64,000 nt of DNA from Acidobacteriota bacterium (GTDB lineage: Bacteria; Acidobacteriota; Terriglobia; Bryobacterales; Bryobacteraceae), in contig JAFDVZ010000002.1 of NCBI GenBank assembly GCA_018268715.1, forward strand, positions 119,632 to 183,631, in the 5' to 3' direction. Below are positions 43,491 through 47,801 of this stretch, one piece after another. Position 1 is the stretch's first letter, and each line of letters starts with the position of its first letter. The notes beneath the pieces were generated by a model, which saw nothing but the letters and a program-made list of their open reading frames with translations, did not search any database and was not told the DNA's origin. Position numbers and translations under genes: made by a program.

Positions 43491-44024
43491 TTACGCCGCC
43501 GCGACCGCTTCGGCGTCCAGGACGCCCGCGATCGCGTGCAGCACGGAAGCGATGCGCACCGCGGCCAGGATCGTCTCTTCCGAAACGCCCTTGTCGCGAA
43601 CCACCTTCTCGTGCGAAGCCGCGCACACGTGACAGTTGTTGATGGCGGAAACCGCCGTGCACCACAGCTCGAAGTCCACCGGATCCGAGCCGTGTCCACG
43701 AATGATCTGCATCCGCAACCGCGCCGGAATCGTCGCGTACTTCGAGTTATCGGTCATGTGCAGGAACCGGTAGTACACGTTGTTCATGCCCATGATCGCC
43801 GCCGCGGCCTTGGCTGCATCGAACGCCTGCGGCGTCAGATGCTGCTTCGCTTCGCCGAGAATAGCGGCCGTCACGTCCACGTTGCGGCTCGCCATCGCGC
43901 ACGCCACAGCCGCGCCCCAGGTCTGCTGCTCCGTCAGTTCGACCTGCCGAAGCACGCTCGAAAGATTCAGCTTCAGATCCTTGGCGTACGCCGGCAGCTT
44001 CTCGCCTAACTGTTCGACGGTCAT
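43491..44024 (-). CDS. ahpD: Alkyl hydroperoxide reductase AhpD-like carboxymuconolactone decarboxylase family protein
   Basis: 177 residues from the ATG at 44024, which overlaps the ahpC stop (ATGA). The AhpD catalytic arrangement E-x11-C-x2-C-x3-H is exact: Glu119, Cys131, Cys134 and His138 in 'LWCTAVSAINNCHVCAASH'. AhpD is a cytoplasmic thiol oxidoreductase that reduces AhpC (in mycobacteria through lipoylated proteins), replacing AhpF. No ahpF is present here. The peroxide-inducible operon perR-ahpC-ahpD thus forms a complete peroxide-reducing pair. Confidence 0.95.
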   Translation of the reverse strand: MTVEQLGEKLPAYAKDLKLNLSSVLRQVELTEQQTWGAAVACAMASRNVDVTAAILGEAKQHLTPQAFDAAKAAAAIMGMNNVYYRFLHMTDNSKYATIPARLRMQIIRGHGSDPVDFELWCTAVSAINNCHVCAASHEKVVRDKGVSEETILAAVRIASVLHAIAGVLDAEAVAAA

Positions 44025-44560
44025 CCGACTTTGATCGTCGCCTCGCCCTTCTGCCAGTTGCAGGGGCACAGTTCATCGGACTGCAGCGCGTCGAGCACGC
44101 GGAGCACTTCCTGCGGGTTGCGGCCCACCGACAGATCGGTGACCATGACGAAACGGATGACGCCCTGCGGATCCACGATGAAGGTGGCGCGCTGCGCGAC
44201 GCCGGCGCCGGGGTCCAGGATGCCGAGCGCGGTGGTCAGCTCATGCTTCACATCGGCCAGCATCGGGAAGGGCAGGTCCTTCAGGTCCGGGTGATGCGTG
44301 CGCCAGGCGTGATGCACGAACTCGGAATCCGTGCTGCCGCCCAGCACCTGCGCGTCGCGATCGGCGAATTCCTTGTTGGCCTTGCCGAAGGCCGCGATTT
44401 CAGTCGGGCACACGAAGGTGAAATCCTTCGGCCAGAAGAAATAGACTTTCCACTTGCCTTCGAAATCGTTGTTGGTGATTTCCTTGAAGGCGCTCTTCAT
44501 ATCCAGGGCCACGGTCGCCGTGACCGAGTAGGCGGGGAACTTCTGTCCAACTCCAAGCAT
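44021..44560 (-). CDS. ahpC: Peroxiredoxin AhpC
   Basis: 179 residues. The peroxidatic Cys51 is in 'FFWPKDFTFVCPTEIAAFGK' with Thr and Arg partners ('AQRATFIVDPQGVIRFV'), and resolving Cys165/Cys167 are in 'SDELCPCNW' near the C-terminus. It reduces H2O2 and organic peroxides in the cytoplasm using the AhpD partner encoded next. The shape (VGQKFPAYSVTAT start, ~180 residues) is the AhpC-type 2-Cys class. It begins 15 bases after the perR stop, in the same operon, so it should be induced by peroxide when PerR is inactivated. Confidence 0.96.
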   Translation of the reverse strand: MLGVGQKFPAYSVTATVALDMKSAFKEITNNDFEGKWKVYFFWPKDFTFVCPTEIAAFGKANKEFADRDAQVLGGSTDSEFVHHAWRTHHPDLKDLPFPMLADVKHELTTALGILDPGAGVAQRATFIVDPQGVIRFVMVTDLSVGRNPQEVLRVLDALQSDELCPCNWQKGEATIKVG

Positions 44561-44575
44561 GTTTGTGATTGGCTC

Positions 44576-45031
44576 CTATGTCGTTAAAGATGACTGCTGT
44601 TTGGCGCACGATGCGCAAATCCCGATGAACTCCACGTTCTGGCGCTCCAGCCGGAACCCGCGGGGCAAGCGTCCCGTGTAACTCGCCGGCGCGACGTCCG
44701 GCTCGTCCAGGTCCACGATGTTACGGCACACGCGGCACACTAGATGATGATGCGGCTCCAGTCTCGCGTCAAGCCGCAGGGATCCGTGATGCAGGCTGAC
44801 CTCGTTCAGCATCCCCGCTTCGAGAAACGTCTTGATGTTCTTGTAGACGGTGCCGAGCGAGATCGAAGGGATCCGCGCGCGTACGGACTCGTAAATCGCC
44901 TCGGGCGTGGGATGGTCCTTGGCCGTCACCAGCGCCTGATAGATGACCTGCCGCTGATGCGTGCAGGCGAGGCCGTGACGCTGCGAGAGGTCGCGGAACA
45001 TCGCCGTAAAGTCGCCGGACGACTGGGTCAT
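44576..45031 (-). CDS. perR: Fur-family repressor, PerR-like peroxide sensor
   Basis: 151 residues. Winged helix ('ACTHQRQVIYQALVTAKDHP', 'ISLGTVYKNIKTFLEAGML') followed by the metal-binding dimer domain: 'EPHHHLVCRVCRNIVDLDEP' and terminal 'IGICASCAK', two Cys-x2-Cys sets for structural zinc and a His-rich regulatory site. Assignment as PerR over Fur or Zur rests on the operon with ahpC and ahpD and on the PerR-type box in its promoter. The start at 45031 lies only ~2 bases from the predicted transcript start; an ATG at 45001 is an alternative. Confidence 0.9.
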   Translation of the reverse strand: MTQSSGDFTAMFRDLSQRHGLACTHQRQVIYQALVTAKDHPTPEAIYESVRARIPSISLGTVYKNIKTFLEAGMLNEVSLHHGSLRLDARLEPHHHLVCRVCRNIVDLDEPDVAPASYTGRLPRGFRLERQNVEFIGICASCAKQQSSLTT

Positions 45032-45039
45032 CTGAACCC

Positions 45040-45078
45040 ATTACACGATAATTATTATCGTTTGTCAACTATTATCGT
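45040..45078 (-). promoter_or_regulatory. perR-ahpC-ahpD promoter with PerR-type box inside the spacer
   Basis: On the reverse strand: TTGACA at 45068-45063, a 17-base spacer, then TGTAAT at 45045-45040. The spacer is almost wholly the palindrome ACGATAAT-T-ATTATCGT (45045-45061), a 17-bp perfect inverted repeat of PerR/Fur type. A second half-site ATTATCGT lies at 45071-45078. A bound dimer would cover both the -35 and -10 region, so repression is by direct exclusion of RNA polymerase. Confidence 0.8.
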
Positions 45079-45103: not shown

Positions 45104-45910
45104 CTAACGCGACGTCGCCTCCCCTTCCAGCAACTGCCGCGACCGCGACTTTGTCGCCCGCCCCTCGATCCACAGCCGCAACCCCGTGGGCAGCTTCGGC
45201 AGCAGAAACGCAACCAACTTGTACTGCCACCCCGGCACCACGAACAGCTTCCCGCGATCGAGCCCCCGTAGCGAGGCGTCCACCACATCCTCCGCCGTCA
45301 ACCACACGCTCTTCGGCCCCAGCCTCTCTCGCTTCACGCCCAGCACATCGTGAAACTCTGAATAGGTGTAACCCGGGCACAACGACTGCACCTTCACCGC
45401 GGAATTCGCCGCCTTCAACTCAAGCGCCAGCGTTTCCGTGAAGTACGCCATCCACGATTTCGTCGAGCAGTAGCTGGCATTGCCCGCGCTGCGAACGAAC
45501 GAGGCGATGGAGGCCACGTTGATCACGCCGCCCCGCCCGCGCGCCGTCATCCCGCCCAGCGCCGCGTGCGTCAATTGCATGGTGGCCATCACGTGAACCC
45601 GGTGCATGGACTCCTGGCTTTCCAGGCTCGCCGTCCAGAACAACCCTTTCGTGCCGAACCCCGCATTGTTCACCAACAGCTCCAAGCGCGGCTCGGCGCC
45701 CAGCTTCGCCGCCAGCGTCTTCACGGCGGAGTCGTCGGCCAGGTCCGCCGCCACAATCTCGCACGGCGTTCCCAACTCGGCGGCCAACTGCTCCAGCCGC
45801 TCCCGCCGCCGCGCCACAAGGATCAGATCGTGCGTCGCCGCCAGTCGTCGAGCAAACGTCGCGCCGATGCCGCTCGACGCGCCCGTGATCGCGGCCACCG
45901 GCCTAGCCAC
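45104..45910 (-). CDS. Short-chain dehydrogenase/reductase
   Basis: 268 residues from a GTG at 45910, preceded by AGGGGG at good spacing; the frame extends further upstream but would overlap the tfoX-domain gene much more. NADP-binding 'AAITGASSGIGATFARRLA', 'LLVNNAGFGTKG', catalytic Ser in 'GVINVASIASFVR', and Tyr-x3-Lys in 'SYCSTKSWMAYF', all typical of the DltE/YqjQ-type SDR group. The C-terminus (about 45,150-45,260) has a hydrophobic/amphipathic stretch 'WQYKLVAFLLPKLPTGLRLW'. Substrate unknown. It starts 8 bases inside the end of the upstream gene. Confidence 0.9.
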   Translation of the reverse strand: MARPVAAITGASSGIGATFARRLAATHDLILVARRRERLEQLAAELGTPCEIVAADLADDSAVKTLAAKLGAEPRLELLVNNAGFGTKGLFWTASLESQESMHRVHVMATMQLTHAALGGMTARGRGGVINVASIASFVRSAGNASYCSTKSWMAYFTETLALELKAANSAVKVQSLCPGYTYSEFHDVLGVKRERLGPKSVWLTAEDVVDASLRGLDRGKLFVVPGWQYKLVAFLLPKLPTGLRLWIEGRATKSRSRQLLEGEATSR

Positions 45911-46271
45911 GCTGGACCCCCTTGCGCCGGGCCGGCTTCTTCTTCGATGCCCCACGCTGGGCCGCCGCCACTGCCGCCCGCCCCCAATCGAGCAGCACAT
46001 CGCGATCCTCAAAGAACTCCGGCGGAGGCGTGTAATAACTCATGGTGTCGGCCCGGTCCGCATAGGGCTGGAAGGCCTTCAAACCGGCCGCTTCAAAGCG
46101 TGGCCGCGTCTCGGCATCGGCCTTCAGATAGAGCACATTGTCCGCGATCAGCGCGAACGGAAGCCCCCCGCAATACAACATGTGGCCGCCGAACATCGCG
46201 CGCGTCGCGATGTCGCCCAGCGGTGCGCACTGCTCCACGATGAACTCCACGTACTCCGCCCTGTTCCTCAT
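45903..46271 (-). CDS. TfoX N-terminal domain protein
   Basis: 122 residues. The TfoX_N domain is clear from 'TRAMFGGHMLYCGGLPFALI', 'NVLYLKADAETRPRFEAAG', 'MSYYTPPPEFFED'. The full competence regulator TfoX/Sxy has a second domain, which is absent, so a competence role is not implied; many short family members are of unknown function. The C-terminus is basic (KKKPARRKG). It lies 3 bases after the RNB gene and overlaps the SDR gene by 8 bases, so the three are probably one transcript. Confidence 0.88.
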   Translation of the reverse strand: MRNRAEYVEFIVEQCAPLGDIATRAMFGGHMLYCGGLPFALIADNVLYLKADAETRPRFEAAGLKAFQPYADRADTMSYYTPPPEFFEDRDVLLDWGRAAVAAAQRGASKKKPARRKGVQRG

Positions 46272-46274
46272 CCC

Positions 46275-47726
46275 CTACCTTTCAAAATCGATGAATCCCT
46301 GCTCCACATCGACATCGCACAGCCTGACACGAATCGTATCGCCAACGTCGAGCCCGTGCTCGCCCCGCATCAGCCGTCCCTCCACCGGCGGATTCACCAC
46401 GCGCACGAACACGCCCTTGGGACGAACGCCCGTCACCACTGCGTCGAAGCTCTCGCCGATGCGCCCGGCCAGCGCCACGGCGGCCAGACGTTTGTTCATG
46501 GTGCGCTCCACCTTGCGGGCCGCATCTTCTTTCAATGTGCAGTTTCGAGCGATGGCGGCCAGTTCGTCCTCCGAGTACGGCGGCGCCGCCCGGTCGATCG
46601 CCGCCTTCACCAGCCTCTGCGTCACGACATCGGCAAAGCGCCGGTTGGGCGCGGTGGAGTGCGTGTAATCATGCGTGGCGAGCCCGAAGTGCCCATCGCC
46701 ATCCTCGCCCGGACGCACCATCACGTACTCGCCCGGCCCCATCAACTTCATCACCGCCAGCGAAACATCGGCGTAATGCAGCGGATCGGCCGCGCGCCGT
46801 TCAACCAAAAATGCCGACAGCGCCCGCGAATCCGCCTCCTCCGGCAACCGGCAGCCATTCCGCCGAGCCAGCTCCACAATGCGCGGCCACCGCTCCGGCG
46901 ACCTCACCACCCTGCGAATCGACGCCACGCCCGCCGCCTCCAGCGTCCGCGCCATCACCTGATTCGCCGCCACCATGAAATCCTCAATCAGCGCGCTCGC
47001 CCGATTCTTGCGCCGCACGCCGATGCCTTCCACCTTCCCATCACTCACAATCGGCCGGCTCTCCACGCGTTCGAACTCCAGCGCGCCCGCCTCGCGCCGG
47101 CCCATCCGCAGCGCCGCGGCCGCCTCGTCCTGCCAGCGCAACTGCGACTCCAGGCCGGGCCACGCCGCCACCTTCTTGGGAGCCTCCGCCGACCCTTCCA
47201 GCCACGGCCCAACGCCCTCATAAGTCAGTTGCGCCCGATTTCGAACCAGCGCCCGATACACCTCCACCCGCGTGACGCCGCCCCGCGCGTCCACCACGAA
47301 GTCCATCACCACGGCCACCCGATCCTGTCCTTCATTTAAGGAGGTGATGCCGGTGGACAGCTCCGAGGGCAGCATCGGGAAGGTCCGCACATGCGTGTAC
47401 ACCGACGTAGTCTGGCTCCGCGCATGCGCATCGATCGCCGATCCTGACGCCACCGTAGCGTCCACATCGGCGATTCCCACCCTGACCCGAACTCCTTCTG
47501 CGGTCCGCTCGGCGACCTCAATCTGATCCAGATCGCGCGAGGTCTCATTGTCGATCGAGGACCAGAGGAAGGCGCGTAAATCGCGTACACTGTACGCGTC
47601 AACTGCCGGCCGCCGGACGATTTCTTCCACTTCTTTCGCGATTTCCGGCGGAAAATCGGGCGAAAAGCCCTCGTGAATCATCTCCGCCCGAGCGCTCGCC
47701 GCCAGGTCGAATCCGTTGTCGGACAT
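46275..47726 (-). CDS. RNB-domain ribonuclease (RNase II/R family, short form)
   Basis: 483 residues from the ATG at 47726. The RNB core dominates: 'LWSSIDNETSRDLDQIEVAE', 'VGIADVDATVASGSAIDAHA', 'YTHVRTFPMLPSELSTGITS', 'GLATHDYTHSTAPNRRFAD', then an S1-like C-terminus ('ESFDAVVTGVRPKGVFVRVV'). It should be a cytoplasmic 3'-5' exonuclease, but the cold-shock domains of RNase II/R are missing. Of the four catalytic aspartates, Asp59, Asp65 and Asp67 are kept while the fourth is Gln68. This DLDQ form seems to be a subfamily hallmark, so activity is likely altered or tuned, not necessarily lost. Confidence 0.9.
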   Translation of the reverse strand: MSDNGFDLAASARAEMIHEGFSPDFPPEIAKEVEEIVRRPAVDAYSVRDLRAFLWSSIDNETSRDLDQIEVAERTAEGVRVRVGIADVDATVASGSAIDAHARSQTTSVYTHVRTFPMLPSELSTGITSLNEGQDRVAVVMDFVVDARGGVTRVEVYRALVRNRAQLTYEGVGPWLEGSAEAPKKVAAWPGLESQLRWQDEAAAALRMGRREAGALEFERVESRPIVSDGKVEGIGVRRKNRASALIEDFMVAANQVMARTLEAAGVASIRRVVRSPERWPRIVELARRNGCRLPEEADSRALSAFLVERRAADPLHYADVSLAVMKLMGPGEYVMVRPGEDGDGHFGLATHDYTHSTAPNRRFADVVTQRLVKAAIDRAAPPYSEDELAAIARNCTLKEDAARKVERTMNKRLAAVALAGRIGESFDAVVTGVRPKGVFVRVVNPPVEGRLMRGEHGLDVGDTIRVRLCDVDVEQGFIDFER

Positions 47727-47801
47727 CGCTCGAAGCCTAACACGCGGCGCAGGTGGCGCGCGACGCTCGCCGCAGCAAACATGCAGCAAAACCGGCGTCT
47801 T

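Follow-up and report, generated by a model that had tools for sequence, protein, structure and literature searches.

A putative PerR operator in the promoter spacer of a perR gene with a predicted near-leaderless start in Bryobacteraceae (Acidobacteriota)

Repressors that control their own operons have been described in several bacteria related to the present case by regulator, by gene order or by the start of the transcript. In Bacillus subtilis, PerR is a Fur-family peroxide sensor that controls ahpC and represses its own gene through the per box, TTATAATNATTATAA, a 7-1-7 palindrome (PMC3953959). In Rhodobacter sphaeroides, acuR-acuI-dddL is an experimentally established leaderless operon headed by its autorepressor; the start point has been mapped to the AUG itself, and translation of the repressor reaches approximately 7.5% of that of the next gene (PMC3017554). 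The perR gene of Leptospira interrogans (LMANv2_280031) is itself leaderless, its mapped transcript start lying 1 nt from the start codon by RNA-seq and 0 nt by 5´ RACE (PMC5243855, Table 1). A survey that is genome-wide and statistical rather than concerned with perR put the share of predicted leaderless genes at 9.7-19.4% in three of three Acidobacteria genomes (PMC3160421). Our search of the open-licence literature returned no paper on perR-ahpCD in Acidobacteria.

The locus studied here lies in a 64-kb stretch of DNA, analysed as a whole and referred to as the window, from the genome of a soil-type bacterium of the Bryobacteraceae (Acidobacteriota), in which perR heads the order perR-ahpC-ahpD. 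Each ingredient of its layout is known from other bacteria, and the combination is well conserved among relatives. The regulator shares its family and the same nine metal ligands with B. subtilis PerR, and the putative operator shares the 7-1-7 form, with arms CGATAAT as against TTATAAT in the B. subtilis per box; unlike in B. subtilis, perR heads an operon with ahpC and ahpD, and a near-leaderless start is predicted. The acuR operon is similar in having the autorepressor gene first, an inverted-repeat operator (8 bp) at its promoter and Shine-Dalgarno (SD) sites for the downstream genes (PMC3017554), and the window has the same arrangement of a repressor gene in first position with an operator overlapping its promoter, as judged by sequence only. 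AcuR, in contrast, is an acrylate-responsive protein of the TetR family, and the start point mapped for acuR is a predicted one for the window perR. L. interrogans perR offers a parallel for a transcript that begins next to the start codon, mapped there at 0-1 nt and predicted here, although it belongs to another phylum and its entry among the mapped starts carries no claim of a spacer operator or of a perR-ahpCD operon (PMC5243855).

Upstream of perR, direct reading of the minus strand gives in order TTGACA, the palindrome ACGATAATAATTATCGT, TGTAAT and an ATG at 45031-45029 (Table 1). The TTGACA-17-TGTAAT arrangement described in the first-pass annotation was borne out. The same annotation had a perfect 17-bp palindrome filling the spacer and the -10 ending 9 bases before the ATG. 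The palindrome is indeed perfect and covers the 17-nt spacer (45062-45046, minus strand) except for its first base, while its last base is already the first T of the -10; the spacing to the start codon is close, but 9 is the difference between coordinates, and the gap from the -10 to the ATG is 8 bases. A half-site upstream of the -35, likewise reported, is present at 45078-45071. It is otherwise seen only in L022, the one other genome of the genus examined, and is therefore probably dispensable and not a conserved part of the system.

Table 1. Features of the perR-ahpC-ahpD locus, listed in the direction of transcription (positions in the window).
Feature	Position	Strand	Basis
Extra PerR half-site ACGATAAT	45071..45078	-	Direct reading, upstream of -35
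-35 element TTGACA	45063..45068	-	Direct reading; TTGAC kept in aligned perR promoters of relatives
Putative PerR-type operator, 17-bp perfect palindrome ACGATAAT-A-ATTATCGT	45045..45061	-	In promoter spacer; position conserved in relatives
-10-like element TGTAAT	45040..45045	-	Direct reading; family consensus TTTAAT; 17-18 nt spacing conserved
Predicted transcription start region, 6-9 nt after -10	45031..45034	-	Inferred from promoter spacing
perR, Fur-family peroxide regulator, 151 aa, ATG at 45031	44576..45031	-	Pfam FUR; 2fe3; metal ligands
ahpC, AhpC/TSA peroxiredoxin	44021..44560	-	Pfam AhpC-TSA E=1.5e-35; 15 nt past perR stop; synteny with perR in relatives
ahpD, alkylhydroperoxidase	43491..44024	-	NCBIfam TIGR00777, 202 bits, above cut-off; synteny

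The palindrome has 2 matches in the 64-kb window (one site on both strands) compared to 0.03 expected in shuffles and is not due to chance. In the 7.63-Mb genome its 13-bp core, GATAATNATTATC, has no second exact copy, and one further place matches it with 1 mismatch. The 7-1-7 core of the operator reads CGATAAT-A-ATTATCG. When the PerR box is taken as a 7-1-7 inverted repeat related to TTATAATNATTATAA, CGATAATAATTATCG is such a repeat: its arms are perfectly symmetric and agree with the per box in their five inner bases (ATAAT/ATTAT). The palindrome was also considered as a terminator and rejected as such, being AT-rich, with no T run and no terminator call. The promoter is missed by a consensus scan that requires an A at hexamer position 2 of the -10, because TGTAAT has no A there; the same holds for the family consensus TTTAAT, and the transcription start point is less certain for this reason.

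The assignment of the first gene to PerR, proposed in the first-pass annotation, is supported by comparative evidence. The protein matches Pfam FUR with E=2.2e-23 (83.1 bits; cut-off 23.1), and its best match in the PDB is B. subtilis PerR (2fe3; E=7.2e-23). In the alignment to the latter, the regulatory-site ligands H37, D85, H91, H93 and D104 (5/5) and the Zn-site cysteines C96, C99, C136 and C139 (4/4) are identical. Asp104 is kept in all aligned perR relatives, among which position 85 is D or E, and Asp rather than Glu at position 104 has been reported to set PerR apart from Fur (PMC4866751). The best NCBIfam PerR model scores 98.6 bits and does not reach the equivalog cut-off of 180, which is an annotation threshold and not a biochemical definition, set for models named for other lineages; by this measure the protein is a divergent PerR.

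To follow conservation, perR orthologues were collected from genomes of the same family and from public genome contigs, covering Bryobacteraceae as well as other Acidobacteriota. The order perR-ahpC-ahpD is retained in most of the family members examined. The aligned upstream regions share a promoter whose spacer holds the box, with the consensus TTGACA-n-A-n-GATAATAATTATCG-TTTAAT. In 28 of 30 related perR loci the promoter and the spacer operator are found again, together with a start codon placed 5-14 nt past the -10. A composite promoter/operator pattern gave 14 matches in 150 family genomes, one per genome and by coordinates all immediately upstream of a perR orthologue, and this number is a lower bound for the layout since the strict pattern misses diverged boxes; the reversed pattern, used as a control, had 0 matches in the 150 genomes. 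Six composite matches were found in an order-level sample of 100 genomes, five being the same loci and one lying in another family of the order. The same layout is seen in Paracidobacterium acidisoli (L054). Covariation between the box arms in the relatives' perR promoters is at most slightly above base composition and not clear. The DNA and its translation show which elements are present, how well they are conserved, that they accompany perR, and that the metal ligands are there, and the conserved layout supports the earlier suggestion that an operator in the spacer would act by occlusion.

Variants of the arrangement were also observed. In two Bryobacter-like loci the perR box has changed at the same spacer position, to TTAGAATAATTCTAA, a perfect dyad, in L046 and to TTAGAAGAATTCTAA in L058; the specificity of PerR may have drifted along with its site. 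Among the Acidobacteriaceae perR loci (L062-L072), several (e.g., L066 and L068-L072) have TTGACA-16-TATAAT as the best promoter, with a box-like sequence overlapping the -10 and the start point, not the spacer, and an ATG approximately 18 nt downstream of the -10. In these loci the operator seems to be shifted relative to the promoter.

The position of the start codon was analysed in 30 perR loci having promoter and box, which are related and do not represent independent events. An in-frame ATG, GTG or TTG occurs 5-14 nt after the -10 in 28/30, compared to 2/30 in each of the other frames, and ATG alone occurs in 21 in the PerR frame vs. 0 and 0 in the others, a frame-to-frame contrast that does not depend on the independence of the loci. 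In nine loci the first base of the start codon is the seventh after the -10, where transcription canonically begins, and these would be truly leaderless. Between 14 and 29 residues precede aligned residue 20, yet the distance to the -10 stays short, which implies that the start codon follows the promoter. The leader predicted for the window perR is approximately 0-3 nt, and the conserved spacing strongly predicts a transcript that begins at the start codon or no more than a few nt away, in agreement with the near-leaderless start suggested at first pass. In 800 kb of stretches from the same genome (596 crude gene calls), the distance from strict -10-like hexamers to candidate starts has a peak at 6-8 nt, with 26 found vs. 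roughly 7 expected from distances 15-39; full -35/-10 pairs were too few to quantify in this count. A codon-position substitution test of the perR N-terminus (60/57/69 changes) gave weak evidence.

Translation from an internal in-frame ATG at 45001 would instead give a leader of approximately 30 nt and an ordinary led mRNA. The Fur domain match begins only at residue 19, as would suit such a start, whereas no evident SD-like sequence precedes it, many relatives (e.g., L023, L025, L041, L046, and L058) have the promoter-proximal start codon only, and the start codon stays close to the -10 although the N-terminal length varies. We regard the internal start as very unlikely; the ATG at 45031 is favoured because the start codon follows the promoter and in several relatives is the only one available. 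A longer leader could also arise from upstream. Minus-strand genes for RNase II-like, TfoX-N-domain and short-chain dehydrogenase proteins (45104-47789) run into perR, the gap is 72 nt, and no terminator-like site was found between these three same-strand genes and perR, so that read-through is possible and could yield an mRNA with a longer leader also carrying perR. That this is the main route to perR transcription, with the spacer promoter playing a minor part, would be in line with the weak -10 but is at odds with the relatives, where the promoter is conserved and stays in close register with the start codon, and we consider it unlikely.

The box could also be the operator of a different Fur-family protein, either an iron Fur or a second PerR-like protein, controlling perR-ahpCD externally. 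Classical Fur boxes, too, have GATAATNATTATC as their core, and the genome encodes three other Fur homologues, with Glu at position 104 in two and Asp in one. Against this, in the genomes compared the box goes with the perR orthologue alone, and no box comparable to the perR palindrome was found upstream of the three paralogues in this genome. There is little probability in external control of this kind, and PerR autoregulation is the best reading for the box given its exclusive link to perR and the paralogues without a comparable one. Two of the paralogue loci have features of their own. One Fur paralogue has different palindromes upstream (TGCGAATGATTCGCA and similar): L019 (C40:660996-661433) is preceded by three distinct 7-1-7 palindromes, TGCAACTGAGTTGCA, TGCGAATGATTCGCA and TGCGACTTAGTCGCA, within approximately 140 bp, resembling a multi-site autoregulatory region. 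L017 (C33:379272-379676) encodes a second PerR-like protein of the Glu85, Asp104 type, adjoins a divergent ferritin/Dps-like gene and has a TTGACA followed by TATTGCgtttGCAATA, perhaps another operator in a promoter spacer.

We think it probable that the locus is an autoregulated promoter of perR-ahpC-ahpD, at which PerR bound in the spacer blocks the polymerase and peroxide relieves the block, giving a near-leaderless perR and an SD-led ahpC. According to this model, a metal-loaded PerR dimer would bind the 7-1-7 palindrome filling the 17-nt spacer and exclude RNA polymerase by steric occlusion. Peroxide would oxidise the Fe site of PerR, causing it to leave the DNA, and the derepressed operon would provide AhpC and AhpD together with fresh PerR that restores repression. 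The transcript would begin approximately 0-3 nt before the perR ATG, resulting in a leaderless or near-leaderless perR mRNA, whereas ahpC would be read from an internal SD. The start codon of ahpD overlaps the stop codon of ahpC (ATGA), which suggests translational coupling of ahpD to ahpC. We infer the binding of PerR, the peroxide response, the transcript start and a lower translation of PerR from these features.

One consequence of leaderless translation may be to keep the repressor low relative to AhpC and AhpD. This is plausible because the acuR operon behaves in this way (PMC3017554) and because the SD match of ahpC is among the strongest 10% of local 20-mers in 22/25 relatives' loci; in the window the ahpC SD is AGGAG, approximately 12 nt from the ATG and at the 12% level, i.e., moderate and far from the ATG. 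A more tentative idea, which we find rather doubtful at present, is that PerR in Bryobacteraceae is a dedicated local switch with essentially one strong genomic operator, located in its own promoter, and with a conserved leaderless translation such that each derepression would yield much enzyme and little repressor. No second regulon target was found in this genome, where the other boxes at 2 mismatches (L002-L005) lie inside or very probably inside coding sequence; diverged targets are possible.

In conclusion, the perR promoter described here is a likely control point of the peroxide response in Acidobacteriota. It offers a clean, conserved and testable case, from a little-studied phylum, in which leaderless translation may set a low repressor-to-enzyme ratio in autorepressed operons.
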